Of a stretch of DNA of 64,000 nt, positions 5,853 to 61,940 are shown in pieces. The number at the start of each line of letters is the position of its first letter. Within the stretch, counting starts at the first letter, position 1. The stretch is from Streptomyces beijiangensis (GTDB lineage: Bacteria > Actinomycetota > Actinomycetes > Streptomycetales > Streptomycetaceae). The notes below the pieces were generated by a model, which made no database searches, had not been told where the DNA came from, and saw only the letters and a list, made by a program, of their open reading frames with translations. Location: the NCBI RefSeq assembly GCF_017315755.1, contig NZ_JAFLRJ010000007.1, forward strand, positions 1 to 64,000, in the 5' to 3' direction. Made by a program: the position numbers and the translations under genes.

Positions 5853-8032
5853 CCGCGCTCGGCGTTCAGCGCGTCCACCGCGCCCCGGGTGTCGCCGATG
5901 GTGGCGTAGTCGACGGCAACGAAGTTCACCGGCCTGCCGCGCTCCCGCTCACAGGCGTGGGCGCGCTCCAGCACCTGCGCCCGCGTGTTGATCTTCCCGG
6001 CGTCCAGCCTGCTGCCGCCCGCGACCGTGATGAAGTGGTTGAGCAGGAAGAGCCGCTTGCCGGTGCCCCCGCGGTGCGGGACACAGCTCAGCTCCGCCGG
6101 GCTCTGGAAGGAGAAGGGGGTCTCCATCCCGTAGCGGTAGAAGTTGCGGTACCAGGGCGCGGGCCCGTCCGCCCGCTCCGCGAAGACCACCAACCGCTTT
6201 CCGCTGTCGATCATCTTGCCCAGCGTGGGCCAGGGGCGGTCGGGGTCCTCGTCGGGTACGTACAGCAGATCCTTCAGCCCGGCCTGCTCGAAGGCGCTCG
6301 CGGTCTCCTCGCCACTGATGTCGTCCTGGACGATCAGCGTCAGGATCTCCGAGGGGTGTCCGCGCAGCCAGCTCCCGATCTGCTCCAGTGCCGGTACGAG
6401 AGGGACCGCACCGGCGCGGCAGACGGCGTGGCACAGCCAGGTCCCCTCGCGCGGCGGGTTGAACCGGTTGACGGCTGCCGCGATCTGGCGCTGCTGCTCC
6501 GGCGGAAGGTCCGAGGCACGGAGGCGTTCCGTCACCTCCGCCGGGCTCTCCCAGTGGTAGGTGTCGATCTGGAGGGCGCGCACCCCGTCGTTCAACTGGC
6601 CGACGATCAGCGGGTCCTGCAGGGGACCGATGAACTTGTCTGCGGTCGTCGACATCGCATTGTGGGAGGTGACCTGGGCGAGTTCGTCGTACGGAAGGTC
6701 GCACAGCCTGCTGCTGCCCTGGCAGATGCGCTGCCCCTGCCCGGCGAAGGCGAGAGGGACCAGGACGATCCCGGCCAGGGCGAACGCCGTCGCGCCCAGC
6801 GCTGCCCAGGCCGGCCGGCGCGGAGCGGCACCGAGCGCGTCCCGCGCGCGCAGCACCCCGGCGAGGGCGACGAGCACGGCCCCCGCCGCCACCGGGACCA
6901 GAGCGGTCAGCAGCGCGACGGTCACCACGCGGTCGACCGCGCTCCGCTGTACGTCGTCGACCAGCCGGGCGACCGAGCCGGGCCACGAAGCCGCGGGCTC
7001 GACCACCGACCCGCCCGTCGTCCACCGGGCGACCGCGATGACGATCGCGAAGAGCAGCCCGCCCGCCGCGATCGTCCAGCCGAGCAGCATCACCCGGCGC
7101 GAGCGCGACGAGGGCCCGGTCAGCCAGAGCGCCGCCAGGGCCGCGAGCCCCAGTGCGGCGGCGACAGGCTCCACCACGCCCAGCGCGAGCCGGGTGGCGG
7201 ACCGCACCTGGTGCACCGTCGCCAGAGCCCCTTGCGAGGTGTCGAGGTCCGCTGTGATGTTCCAGGTGCCGCCGTCGGCCGCCTGCCGCAGCTGCGCGGC
7301 CGCGTCCTGCGTACGGCCGGAGAAGGCGGCGGGGCCGACGGCGGCCAGCGCCGTGCCCACGTCCCCGCTCCTGAGCGCCACCTCGACCTCGGGGCGCAGC
7401 GCCGCACGGTCCGACTGCGGTACGACTCTCAGCAGCGCGTCCGTCGCCGTCGCCGCCTCGTCGGGCGACAGGGCGAGCCTGGGCAGACCGGCGGGCGGGC
7501 GGCCGGCGACGACATCGCGTGCGGCCGCGTTGATCCCGTCGAGGAAGGCCGGGAAGTCGGGTTCGGTGCTCTGCTGCACCGAGGCGATCAGATCGCCGAA
7601 GTAGATCTGTGCGAGGGTTCCGACGTTCGCGCTCAGACGGCGGACGTCGACGGTCAGCCGCAGGGTGCTGTGCTCCCCCCTGAGGTAGCCGATCACCTCG
7701 GAGATCTGCTGGTCGACGAGGGCCCGCAGGGTCTCCGGCGGCAGCACGATCTTGAGGTTGGACGTGAGGATCGCCTCGGGGACGGGCAGCTGCCCCAGGA
7801 GGTTCCGGGTCACCGGTGTGATCTGCGGATCGACGAGGACCTGGTCGTACACCCGGTTCCAGGCGTGTTCGTCGTCGAGCGCGGTCCGGTAGAAACCGGC
7901 GCTGAGTACGGTGCTGCGCGCGGTGGCGGCCCCGGCCACGGCGACGATGCACAGCACGGCGAGCACGCACAGGGCCGGGCGGAGCATCCTCGAGGCAGAG
8001 GCGGGCAGGCCCATGCATTCATGCTGGGCCAC
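5849..8032 (-). CDS. Membrane protein with C-terminal PI-PLC-like phosphodiesterase domain
   Basis: 727 aa. An N-terminal membrane anchor (PALCVLAVLCIVAVAGAATA) precedes a ~250-residue probably extracytoplasmic region. A cluster of hydrophobic helices follows (~300-430, e.g. VMLLGWTIAAGGLLFAIVIA). The C-terminal ~290 residues are PLC-like: VTSHNAMSTTADKF near 450-465 supplies the first catalytic-type His, followed by ALQIDTYHWE and ILTLIVQDDIS. By family knowledge such TIM barrels cleave phosphodiesters such as glycerophosphoinositides; the real substrate is unknown. GTG 8032 and ATG 8014 are both possible starts and neither has a good ribosome site. Confidence 0.8.
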   Translation of the reverse strand: MAQHECMGLPASASRMLRPALCVLAVLCIVAVAGAATARSTVLSAGFYRTALDDEHAWNRVYDQVLVDPQITPVTRNLLGQLPVPEAILTSNLKIVLPPETLRALVDQQISEVIGYLRGEHSTLRLTVDVRRLSANVGTLAQIYFGDLIASVQQSTEPDFPAFLDGINAAARDVVAGRPPAGLPRLALSPDEAATATDALLRVVPQSDRAALRPEVEVALRSGDVGTALAAVGPAAFSGRTQDAAAQLRQAADGGTWNITADLDTSQGALATVHQVRSATRLALGVVEPVAAALGLAALAALWLTGPSSRSRRVMLLGWTIAAGGLLFAIVIAVARWTTGGSVVEPAASWPGSVARLVDDVQRSAVDRVVTVALLTALVPVAAGAVLVALAGVLRARDALGAAPRRPAWAALGATAFALAGIVLVPLAFAGQGQRICQGSSRLCDLPYDELAQVTSHNAMSTTADKFIGPLQDPLIVGQLNDGVRALQIDTYHWESPAEVTERLRASDLPPEQQRQIAAAVNRFNPPREGTWLCHAVCRAGAVPLVPALEQIGSWLRGHPSEILTLIVQDDISGEETASAFEQAGLKDLLYVPDEDPDRPWPTLGKMIDSGKRLVVFAERADGPAPWYRNFYRYGMETPFSFQSPAELSCVPHRGGTGKRLFLLNHFITVAGGSRLDAGKINTRAQVLERAHACERERGRPVNFVAVDYATIGDTRGAVDALNAERG

Positions 8033-58355: not shown

Positions 58356-59012
58356 TCAGTGGGTGGCTCGTGTGGCGGTGAGGTGGGCGAAGGCGACGAC
58401 GTTTCCCCGGTAGCGGTGGGCCTTTGTGTCGAAGCCGGCGCCGCAGGTGATGACGCGGAGTTCGGCGTGTGGGCTGGGGCCGTAGATCTTCTGGCTGGGG
58501 AAGTCGTCGGCATCGAAGGCTTCTACCGTGTCGATGGTGAAGACCGCGGTCTGGCCGTCGGAGCGGTCGACTTCGATGCGGTTGCCGTTCTTCAGCGCGC
58601 CGAGGTTGTAGAAGACCGCCGGCCCGTGGTCGTTGTCGACGTGCCCGGCGATGATCGCGGTGCCGTCTGTGCCGGGCGGGGTTCCGTCGCGGAACCATCC
58701 AGCGAGGTTGGCGTCGGCCTCCGGCGGTGGCGCCAAGTGATGCTCTGCGTCGAGGCTCAGCCCGGTCAGTGGAGCGTCCACGTGGATGGACGGGATGTGC
58801 ACCTGGATCGGTGTGGCGTGGGGCATCCCCGGGTGGGTGGCAGCGTGGTGTACACCCGGAGCGCTCTGCGCTGCGGCGGGCTGAGGGGGTGGAGCGGCAT
58901 GGGGGTGTCTGCCGTTGTAGAGAAGGACGAGCCCGATCAGCGTGATCAGTGCAAGGGCTACGCGCCCTGCCATGGGGCGGTGTTCATTGTGGGGGGCGGA
59001 TCGACGGTTCAA
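58356..59012 (-). CDS. Class F sortase
   Basis: 218 aa. One N-terminal membrane anchor (GRVALALITLIGLVLLYNG), a Pro/His-rich linker, then the sortase barrel: TAIIAGHVDN (catalytic His), RVITCGAGF (Cys) and HRYRGNVVAFA (Arg). Class F enzymes are the actinobacterial type, of unclear substrates. Start TTG 59012 is supported by AGGAGAGG nine bases upstream; an ATG at 58973 lacks one. Lies downstream of a gene for an exported, C-terminally anchored protein. Confidence 0.88.
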   Translation of the reverse strand: MNRRSAPHNEHRPMAGRVALALITLIGLVLLYNGRHPHAAPPPQPAAAQSAPGVHHAATHPGMPHATPIQVHIPSIHVDAPLTGLSLDAEHHLAPPPEADANLAGWFRDGTPPGTDGTAIIAGHVDNDHGPAVFYNLGALKNGNRIEVDRSDGQTAVFTIDTVEAFDADDFPSQKIYGPSPHAELRVITCGAGFDTKAHRYRGNVVAFAHLTATRATH

Positions 59013-59184
59013 CGTCTGACCTCTCCTGCACCTTCGGGCCCGTACAGGCTTCGGACAAGCGCCCGGCCCCTCTTGAACACGTCTGGACCGGCGGGCGTCA
59101 GCGTGCGGTGTGCGTGGCGGTGACGCACCGGGCCCGCGCGGCCAGGAGATCTTTTTGGACGCGCGGGCTCCGAGAGCGTGGGTG

Positions 59185-59616
59185 TCAGACCTGCGAGTCG
59201 GCCCGGCGGCGGCGCAGTGCCATCACGCCGATGCCCGCCGCGCCGACGAGCCCGGCCCCGGTCGCGAGGGAGGCCGCGTTCGAGCCCTCGCTGGTGCTGC
59301 CGACACCGGTCTTCATCGGGCCGACCGGGCTCGTGTTGCCGCAGACGCGCTGCGCGTCCGTGGTCGCGAGGGCCGCCGCGTTTGCCAGCGAGGCCGCGTT
59401 GTCCTCCTCGGCCTTGCCCGGGTGACCGCCGGCCTCTTCCTGCTTCTTCAGGTCGGCGGCAGCGGCGTCGGAGTCCGCCTGGGCCTGGTTGGCCTTGGTC
59501 GTCGCGGTGTCACACGCCGCGGAGGCCTGCGGGGCGGCGTGGGCTATCGGCGCACCGAATCCAAGCGCGACGGTGAGAGCTGCTGCGGCGGGAAGGGCGT
59601 AACGGATAGAGCGCAT
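59185..59616 (-). CDS. Exported protein with C-terminal membrane anchor, likely sortase partner
   Basis: 143 aa. Signal peptide (RYALPAAAALTVALGFGAPI, cleavage near AHAA), a small helical domain with two Cys (ACDTAT, RVCGNT), and a C-terminal sorting-like region: SLATG, a hydrophobic helix (AGLVGAAGIGVMAL) and RRRR. SLATG resembles but does not match LPxTG/LAxTG. The gene order with the class F sortase suggests it is the substrate. ATG 59616 behind AGAGG. Confidence 0.78.
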   Translation of the reverse strand: MRSIRYALPAAAALTVALGFGAPIAHAAPQASAACDTATTKANQAQADSDAAAADLKKQEEAGGHPGKAEEDNAASLANAAALATTDAQRVCGNTSPVGPMKTGVGSTSEGSNAASLATGAGLVGAAGIGVMALRRRRADSQV

Positions 59617-59919
59617 GGCCTCTGCTTTCACCAAACAGGTGCGGCGCCCGATGCGCCGCAGTCGTCCCTGCTCCCTCCATCAAGACGCCATAGGCAACGA
59701 ACCGCACGGCAGGGCTGCTTCTCCTTTTCCGCCGAACGTGGTACTGCCCCTTCCCTCTGATCGTCAATGCCTGCAGGTGACAGCGTTGGGACGAGCAAAG
59801 CGATCGACGGACGGAAGCACCCGCTGAACGGGTGACGCCCCCACATGAAGGGGACACAGATGCCCTGTTGGCCCCGACAGCGCGCTTAAGCCTGATGCAG
59901 AACTGCCGTCGGGCGCCTA
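59617..59919. other. Intergenic DNA between the anchored-protein gene and the IS element
   Basis: About 300 bases with no convincing frame. It should contain the promoter of the minus-strand anchored-protein gene; the IS left end begins at 59920. Confidence 0.5.
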
Positions 59920-59938
59920 GGCCGTTTCGTTTGGATCA
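59920..59938 (+). repeat. IS left inverted repeat
   Basis: GGCCGTTTCGTTTGGATCA, preceded by TA; exact inverse of 61732-61750. Confidence 0.9.
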
Positions 59939-59939
59939 T

Positions 59940-60855
59940 CTGATCGTTGGCCCGGACGTGCCGTTGACTGACGCGCAGTGGGCGCGGATCGAGCCGCTAC
60001 TACCGGCCCGGACGCCGAGGCGAGGTGGGCGGTGGCGGGATCACCGGGAAGTGATCGATGCAATCGCCTGGAATTTTCAGACAGGGTCGCAATGGGTGTA
60101 TTTGCCTGCGAAGTACGGCAACTGGAGGGGCGTCTACAACAGGCTGCGGATGTGGGCCGTGGACGGTACTTGGGAGCGAGTGTTCGCCGTCTGATGGCCG
60201 ATGCGGACGCTGACGAAGCCCTGATCTGGGTTGTCTCGGTGGACTCCACAGTCGTGCGCGCTCACCAGCACGCCGCCGGGGCCCGTAAAAAAAGGGCCCC
60301 GGTCGGTGAGCCGGACGACCACCCCATCAGCCGTCCGTGGCCCCAGCTGAGCCCAGGGTCCTCGCTCTTGTGAAGAGCCCCACGGCTCCGGCTGATCGGG
60401 AGGTGGCCCTGGGGACGGTTCGAACCACGGCACGGTACGCCGACCGAATCCGAAGGGGCAGGGGCCGGTCTGCGTCCCTCTTGTCGAAGCGCTCCAGGCG
60501 CTGCGTATTGACCAGACGTCCCACCCGGCCCCCGCCAGGGTGGGCCCAACGGCCCACCCGCAGTGCTTATTAGGCGTACTCATCGCGCGCGATCCGCGAG
60601 CACCTGCGCAAGCGCGGTATCCGCGCGGTGATCCCTGTCCCGGCGGATCAGAAGGGCCACCGACCGCGTCGAGGCAGCCGCGGTGGCAGGTCACCCACCG
60701 CCGACCGTGAGGCATACAAACAGCGCAGCAGGGTCGAGCGGTGCATCAATCGCCTGAAGCAGTGGCGCGGCGTTGCCACCCGCTACGAAAAGACTGCGGT
60801 CATCTACCTGGCCGGGCTCTATGTCGCGGCCATCTTCCTGTGGTCCGCACGGTGA
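59940..60855 (+). pseudogene. IS5-family (IS427 group) transposase, frameshifted and interrupted
   Basis: The N-terminal part VPLTDAQWARIEPLLPAR, YGNWRGVYNRLRMWAVDGTW stops at TGA 60192-60194 through a one-base loss after VFA. The +1-related frame continues LIWVVSVDSTVVRAHQHAAG (first catalytic Asp), then an A7-G3 slippery run near 60287-60296 as used for programmed frameshifting. Homology ends near 60340, is replaced by ~230 unrelated bases, and resumes at ~60571 with YSSRAIREHLRKRGIRAVIP to the normal end LAGLYVAAIFLWSAR. No active transposase can be made. Confidence 0.85.
60341..60570. other. Unidentified ~230-bp segment replacing the middle of the transposase
   Basis: Replaces the central ~190 bp (second catalytic Asp region). 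Both strands have short open frames without ribosome sites. It contains GGTTCGAACC, but no tRNA fold could be assembled around it. Origin unknown. Confidence 0.55.
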
Positions 60856-60913
60856 GCCACCGCGCTCCGGTCAGGACGAGTGCCGCGACGGCGGGGCGAG
60901 CGCGGGAGCCTTG

Positions 60914-61486
60914 TCAGCGGACGACGTCGAAGACGTTCTTCTGCAGCCCGTTGGCGTAGGCCTCGTGCTCGACGAGCTTCAGCTTCTGTGTGTCCTTGTC
61001 GGTGGCGCTGAAGAGCCGCTTGCCCGCCCCGAGCAGCAGCGGGAAGACGACCAGGTGGTAACGGTCGATCAGGCCGGCGTCCGAAAGCGCCCGGTTCAGG
61101 GAGGCACTGCCGTGGACGATGATGGGGCCGCCCTCGGTCCCCTTCAGCGCGGCGACCTCGTCGAGGGTGCGCAGGATTGTCGTCTCGCCCCAGTTCGATA
61201 CCAGGTCGTCCTCGGTGAGGGTGGTGGAGACGACGTACTTCGGCATCAGCTTGTAGTCGGCGAAGTCCGCCATGTCGGGCCACACCGGGCTGAACGCCTC
61301 GTAGCTGGTCCGGCCCATCAGGATCGCGGCAGCCTCCTGCTGCTCCCGGCCCTTGATCTCGAAGGCCTCGGGGAGGAACTCGACGTCCTTAAAGGTCCAC
61401 CCGGAGTTCCGGTAGCCGGGCTCGCCTCCCGGGCCTTCCACGACGCCGTCGAGCGATATGAAGGCGGTGCTGATCAGGGTACGCAT
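60914..61486 (-). CDS. RibD C-terminal/dihydrofolate reductase-like protein
   Basis: 190 aa. RTLISTAFISLDGVVEGPGG, AAAILMGRTSYEAFSPVW, YVVSTTLTEDDL, GGPIIVHGSASLNRALSDAG and YHLVVFPLLLGAGKRLF follow the RibD_C/YwjB-type NADPH reductase fold; classical folate residues are not conserved, so antifolate resistance is doubtful. ATG 61486 behind GAGGAA. It lies within the IS inverted repeats, opposite to the transposase. Confidence 0.9.
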   Translation of the reverse strand: MRTLISTAFISLDGVVEGPGGEPGYRNSGWTFKDVEFLPEAFEIKGREQQEAAAILMGRTSYEAFSPVWPDMADFADYKLMPKYVVSTTLTEDDLVSNWGETTILRTLDEVAALKGTEGGPIIVHGSASLNRALSDAGLIDRYHLVVFPLLLGAGKRLFSATDKDTQKLKLVEHEAYANGLQKNVFDVVR

Positions 61487-61731
61487 CTCGGTTCCTCGGT
61501 GTCTCGTGTCTGGATCTCAGCGGGTGCGGCCGGTGCACGCTTCGACCACCTTCGTGGCTGCGGTGCACCAATCACGATCTATGACTGTGGATCATGGAGG
61601 AACTCATCGGTCGCCGCCACCCTTTTCCGACAGCCTCGGCCATCTGAATCACCTCGGCGAGTCACACACGTGCCAGATCGTGCGACCTGGCCGCAACAGG
61701 TGGCGCTGCATCTTGATGCAGTCGCACTCCG

Positions 61732-61750
61732 TGATCCAAACGAAACGGCC
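61732..61750 (-). repeat. IS right inverted repeat
   Basis: TGATCCAAACGAAACGGCC, followed by TA; exact inverse of 59920-59938. Confidence 0.9.
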
Positions 61751-61940
61751 TAAGCCGCTGGCCTTGCCGTTGCGGTCGGCATCGGCGCTGTTCACGGCGG
61801 CGCGCAGTGTGACGACGCCGTTGCCGGGCCGGGCCCTGTCGCCGAGGTGCGCTTCTACGTGTGATGCCTTTTGGGCGGGTCGCAGGTGCACCGCCGTGGT
61901 GCCGGATGGTCCCTGGATCGGGACGTTGGTCTCTGGCGGG
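61751..61940 (-). pseudogene. Possible gene fragment cut by the IS right end
   Basis: On the minus strand, approaching the IS boundary, a high-GC3 stretch reads TTAVHLRPAQKASHVEAHLG, GNGVVTLRAAVNSADADRNG and then enters the IS repeat in frame. It looks like a protein fragment truncated by the insertion; no continuation was found left of the element. Low confidence. Confidence 0.3.

Follow-up and report, generated by a model that had tools for sequence, protein, structure and literature searches.

Plain insertion sequences (IS) are mostly thought to carry the transposase alone, and examples of transporter IS (tIS) exist in IS families other than the one discussed here. The name tIS refers to IS copies with a passenger gene that is unrelated to transposition (PMC3129680), and the mobile insertion cassettes (MICs) are among the derivatives that encode no transposase themselves (PMC3129680, PMC3281130). 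For the IS427 group, the published account gives a size of 832-865 bp, two overlapping ORFs with a frameshift motif in members, and mostly 2-bp direct repeats (PMC3281130). We report on a 1831 bp element in Streptomyces beijiangensis, at positions 59920-61750 of the window (i.e. the whole stretch of DNA that was analysed, 64,000 nucleotides of contig NZ_JAFLRJ010000007.1), which, judged from sequence comparisons, very probably represents a decayed passenger-carrying IS (tIS) of the IS5 family. The lineage is IS427-like, the group name being given by resemblance. Like the tIS (PMC3129680), it is an IS copy that carries a further gene without relation to transposition; it differs in belonging to an IS5/IS427-like Streptomyces lineage, in an outer right end that apparently comes from a second IS copy, and in the predicted absence of a functional transposase of its own in the window copy, where the gene is broken, while the corresponding frames are open in Streptomyces sp. 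V4I2. With MICs (PMC3129680, PMC3281130), the window copy has in common that it is now a gene between IS ends without a working transposase, whereas it keeps most of a transposase gene, and the V4I2 copy has open frames. Passenger-carrying IS (tIS, MIC) are already known; among the literature matches listed (titles and beginnings of abstracts), neither the element nor a passenger-prone IS427-like lineage of this kind was described, and no RibD passenger on an IS5-type element was found.

The window element is bounded by exact 19-bp inverted repeats that are identical to each other, with TA outside both, and it holds a broken transposase gene and an intact, oppositely oriented reductase gene, as a preliminary description of the locus had stated. 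Specifically, the left repeat is followed by the broken transposase gene (+) with its normal end, and then by 0.9 kb that includes the reductase gene (-), convergent with the transposase, and the right repeat. When up to 3 mismatches are allowed, the assembly (8.4 Mb) contains the 19-bp repeat 5 times (reversed control, 0), and a search for paired ends with the reversed pattern found none in 1.62 Mb of fetched loci, some of which overlap. The features are as follows.

59918..59919, no strand: left TA, presumed target duplication (sequence)
59920..59938, +: left terminal inverted repeat, 19 bp, exact (repeat search)
59964..60194, +: N-terminal part (DUF4096) of the predicted IS5-type transposase, frame lost after it (Pfam DUF4096, E 8.5e-26; alignment to relatives)
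60188..60340, +: middle piece of the transposase in a different frame, reaching past an A run (comparison with relatives)
60341..60571, +: stretch without BLAST match to the transposase genes of relatives (BLAST)
60572..60855, +: C-terminal part (DDE) of the transposase, ending ...FLWSAR stop (Pfam DDE_Tnp_1; mostly 78-84% DNA identity to relatives)
60853..60913, no strand: junction of transposase stop and passenger, with an apparently eroded inner right repeat (junction comparison; TGATCCAACG in L168, L065 and L055)
60914..61486, -: passenger, intact 190-aa RibD_C (dihydrofolate reductase-like) gene (Pfam, ORF)
61487..61618, -: conserved upstream (promoter-like) module of the reductase (most aligned copies, inside and outside IS ends)
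61619..61731, no strand: right subterminal stretch, in relatives apparently an eroded 3' end of a second transposase copy (shuffle test; the window copy alone is not significant)
61732..61750, -: right terminal inverted repeat, 19 bp, exact (repeat search)
61751..61752, no strand: right TA, presumed target duplication (sequence)

The DUF4096 part of the transposase lies before position 60194 and scores above the Pfam cut-off, while the C-terminal part, which extends to 60855, matches DDE_Tnp_1 just below it (E 8.2e-05, 22.9 bits, cut-off 23); between the two there are frame changes and sequence that aligns poorly. Plain relatives, approximately 899 bp long, end in repeats of the same type with TA outside each, and they contain only the transposase gene, whose stop codon touches the right repeat. 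Two overlapping transposase frames are present in the relatives from V4I2 (L168) and G048 (L110). In common with the IS427 group (PMC3281130) are the DUF4096/DDE transposase, the two overlapping frames in relatives, the size of the plain elements and the TA duplication, whereas the elements considered here hold an extra ~0.25-0.9 kb of gene-containing DNA, located before or after the transposase gene. It had also been suggested to look for full-length copies elsewhere in the same genome. No closely related one was found in the window's own draft assembly (94.6% complete), where the nearest whole transposase is 48-54% identical and one partial transposase 58%; on these values, help in trans within this assembly appears doubtful.

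The passenger matches the Pfam family RibD_C over a full-length domain (residues 2-182, E 1.3e-29), and its closest solved structures are PDB 8jsv (E 5.2e-21) and YyaP (2gd9, E 7.6e-10). The match to RibD_C/YyaP-type dihydrofolate reductase-like proteins covers most of the length, and the product is a predicted reductase. Together with ~130 bp of promoter-like DNA the gene is common in the genus, where the matches listed include more than 100 places with ≥82% identity and one with 79%. As a sample we used the 93 best-scoring listed places outside the own genome. All 93 of these loci have an intact reductase gene (190 codons), the median dN/dS is 0.21 (600 random pairs), and flank similarity divides them into 76 different contexts; on our reading, the window reductase is still kept by selection. 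Two more copies are present in the own genome, on contigs C973 (L059) and C1070 (L060), one complete (88% identical) and one matching only the first 366 of 573 bases, and IS ends were not seen beside either. Most aligned reductase copies are preceded by a conserved upstream block, CCGATGAGTTTC...GCAGTC (window 61487-61618), a possible candidate site for a regulator; in a search of the own genome for a wider regulon with this motif, only the window and C1070 reductase copies matched.

The proposal that the locus is a passenger gene on an IS (tIS-like) gains support from two more strains, in which the search that had been recommended, for the same repeats around the same passenger, was successful. 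Scanning one genome per species from ~85,000 prokaryote species for the reductase-side end gave 8 matches, two of which are units in Streptomyces sp. V4I2 and Streptomyces sp. MMG1533; the other six (Methylobacterium, two Xanthobacter, Nitrospiraceae and two Collimonas) were dropped as they had no match to the elements. The V4I2 unit (L168, positions 5910-7743, 1834 bp) is 81-86% identical to the window element; its two repeats are present and each bordered by TA, the two overlapping transposase frames are open and the reductase gene is intact. The MMG1533 unit (L167, 5329-6900, 1572 bp; 91-94% identical to the window) also has both repeats and an intact reductase gene, with part of the transposase deleted and the right TA reading CA. 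Because the junction between transposase and reductase is common to the three units and their flanks have no mutual similarity (for V4I2 only 257 bp on one side were compared), we conclude that the unit came to three unrelated places in one piece, and the open frames in V4I2 argue that the window copy is a decayed derivative. Three whole reductase units are thus known, two of them with a damaged transposase gene; no whole unit was found in 391 other genomes of the genus (the best other matches were 901 and 931 bp), nor did any plasmid record cover 80% of the window or V4I2 element.

Sister elements contain other passengers. A 250-aa ORF without any Pfam family above cut-off occupies the same position in elements from G221 (L109, 3870-5484, 1615 bp), G048 (L110, 3911-5594, 1684 bp) and a Streptomyces tendae plasmid (L172, 3159-4810, 1652 bp), all three with TA on both sides and with mutually unrelated flanks. 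An extended left end with an 82-83-aa ORF before the transposase is seen in elements of 1141-1161 bp from G290, G205 and G095 (L112, 3446-4606; L113, 3553-4693; L114, 3546-4700), of which two have TA on both sides; the conserved ORF looks membrane-bound by eye. L112 and L113, each situated next to other IS5-type sequence, have 435 bp in common at 82% (on opposite sides), and a stretch of 300 bp is common to L113 and L172 at 74%. Moreover, there are passengers with single occurrences: a barstar-like gene after the transposase (L098, 1501-2943; PF01337, E 1.8e-21; TA on both sides, right repeat with 4 mismatches), a DUF6924 gene before it (L107, 1501-2988; E 5.3e-35), a HAD-domain gene in an element with only the transposase end present (L132, 1503-2240; E 2e-09) and a 96-aa ORF (L108). 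In the own genome, a 665 bp element on contig C983 (4427-5091; L061) has ends like those of the window element, one with 1 mismatch and the other with 3, and is bordered by TA at both; it is without transposase and nearly filled by a 205-aa ORF, i.e. it is MIC-like. These single-case passengers (barstar, DUF6924, HAD, 96-aa and 205-aa) are candidate mobile elements that could be fusions at one site. Among 30 loci from a search for ends, 9 have a TA-bordered pair within the ≤3 kb fetched, a distance beyond which elements are not visible, and these comprise 4 plain, 1 shortened and 4 extended elements; 2 more pairs have other borders. Very small and common IS elements of one lineage thus appear to carry single genes repeatedly.

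For the origin of the reductase unit the right ends are informative. Just inside the repeat, the right ends of L168 (V4I2), L167 (MMG1533), L039, L040 and L045 (the latter three from G284, G218 and G293) contain what appears to be eroded coding sequence for the transposase C-terminus, at an offset of 57-64 bp. In five of seven right ends the score was above all 300 dinucleotide shuffles, barely so for MMG1533 (31 vs a maximum of 30), while 26 of 300 shuffles reached the score of the window right end and 50 of 300 that of L068 from G110, neither of which is significant on its own. In addition, the start of an inner right repeat, TGATCCAACG, follows the transposase stop in V4I2 (L168), G069 (L065) and G048 (L055), and a further changed version of this relic is present in the window, MMG1533 and G218. 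The eroded coding in the five relatives, together with the inner repeat relic, fits two IS copies with decayed inner ends, and the unit probably arose where two such copies, oriented alike, flanked a reductase gene. Its apparent origin thus has the arrangement of a composite transposon; the window element differs from the latter in being now a single unit, with one transposase gene and outer ends only, where the right arm corresponds to the eroded 3' end in the relatives. For the 250-aa passenger, a second-IS origin of the right end was unsupported (214 to 270 of 300 shuffles as high in all three ends). Two loci in other genomes possibly resemble earlier stages of capture: L121 (3492-5167), where an IS is followed, 776 bp further on, by an orphan right end of like orientation, with an ORF enclosed, and L115 (3339-5555), where an IS whose inner end is truncated precedes a 356-aa gene and then the 3' end of a second IS, with CA instead of TA at the outer right border. 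With an orphan end, a truncated inner end, an eroded inner end and a complete unit as candidate capture stages side by side, the origin of passenger elements becomes testable.

These data suggest that the ancestral unit would have consisted of the left repeat, a frameshift-type transposase gene, a convergent reductase gene with its own promoter-like DNA, and the right repeat, left behind when the inner ends of the two IS copies eroded, so that a single transposase gene was retained along with the second copy's outer right end. A transposase made by frameshifting would bind the two outer ends and move everything between them, such that, as the anatomy suggests, the unit would enter a TA-containing target as a whole and duplicate the TA. 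As its own transposase is dead, the window copy could presumably no longer move itself, and movement would need transposase in trans. The preliminary description had ascribed such reliance to the element; it fits the broken window copy and does not extend to V4I2, which has both transposase frames.

Two other explanations of the window locus deserve attention. A reductase gene resident at this site could merely be flanked by two IS that inserted independently, or by an IS on one side and a solo end on the other; in line with this, the reductase gene and its promoter-like DNA are widespread in the genus at places that lack IS ends, a second IS copy seems to be the source of the right end, and L121 is an IS with just such an orphan end. 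What speaks against it is that the same unit with the same inner junction is found at three sites with unrelated flanks, and that the window repeats are identical and both bordered by TA. Related strains with the reductase gene at this very place and without IS ends would have indicated separate insertions; the reductases that lack such ends were instead found in other neighbourhoods. We consider independent insertion at the window site highly unlikely and largely refuted for the whole unit, while for the unit's ancestor it remains the likely origin. It is also most improbable that the locus is a mobile insertion cassette that never had a working transposase of its own: the transposase gene is broken, no close whole transposase was found in the assembly and the C983 element shows that the same genome has another end-bounded element without one, but large parts of a transposase remain in the window, and the two open frames in V4I2 refute a cassette for the lineage. 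Non-autonomous is nevertheless a fair description of the present state of the window copy, and a decayed tIS remains the preferred reading.

To what extent the IS contributed to the distribution of the reductase gene in the genus is a separate matter. We looked for transposase relics (tblastn, E up to 0.01, by zone and strand) around the 93 loci. Sufficient flanking sequence was available near the gene at all 93 loci upstream and at 91 downstream, and farther out at 79 upstream and 71 downstream. Relics were detected at five loci (weak for L051, 33% identity), in every case convergent with the reductase gene and no more than 1.8 kb downstream of it; the other seven zone/strand classes had none. 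End-like sequence (≤4 mismatches, expected orientation, -380 to -120) was found at eight of the 93 loci, with two of these (L057 and L058) representing one context, and some hits, at -163 to -202, resembling an internal stretch of long right ends, so that they may be look-alikes. There was no hit for the opposite orientation (93 loci), in four other zones of 260 bp (91-93 loci) or with two altered patterns (93 loci), and four wider zones gave 0, 0, 0 and 1. Altogether 11 loci have an IS trace (relic or end-like sequence) and 82 do not. In addition, the reductase gene of three plasmid loci (L148-L150) is accompanied by a repeat that resembles the left end with 3 mismatches. The reductase tree is poorly resolved, with 9 of 94 inner branches well supported; on it the 17 linked rows need 13 changes, a mild clustering (a value this low was seen in 12 of 500 shuffles), and placing the 8 clearly IS-linked copies in one lineage is compatible with the gene tree (AU p 0.479).

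We hold it to be an even call whether the reductase gene spread by other routes (plasmids, recombination) and was captured once by the IS, which then had no large part in the spread; this question concerns the spread of the gene and not the identity of the window element. The many loci without a trace, the possible single clade and the mild clustering are all consistent with such routes, as is the presence of the gene on five plasmids at ~90% identity, of which the three examined in detail are predicted to be non-mobilizable. Conversely, the transposase relics occur solely, and the end-like sequences almost solely, at the expected place, the 93 loci represent 76 contexts, and the linked rows require 13 changes, albeit on a poorly resolved tree. 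The association between IS and reductase gene appears old and specific, and we do not claim a genus-wide spread of the gene driven by the IS. A wider idea, put forward tentatively and in our judgement somewhat doubtful, is that the IS427-like lineage acts as a general one-gene shuttle in Streptomyces, which, using either an extension of its left end or the orphan right end from a second copy, would pick up host genes (reductase, barstar, DUF6924, HAD and several others), scatter them and erode with little trace, such that the genus-wide scatter of the reductase gene would be largely its work. The lineage may in any case offer a possible route for scattering single accessory genes through Streptomyces.

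Finally, empty TA target sites, another check that had been proposed, were not found with the flanks searched. The window right flank gave only short matches in 34 of 391 other genomes of the genus (best 3.5e-6). Among the matches listed for the joined flanks of L110 in 99 other genomes, one side alone was covered (~114 bp at 77-79% in five) and none extended across the join. The joined flanks of L172 gave 0 plasmid records with 80% of the query, the listed matches being on one side. On the other flank of the window element, a gene for a sortase-domain protein adjoins one for a small secreted-looking protein with a C-terminal tail resembling a membrane anchor (58356-59634, - strand; the latter judged by eye).
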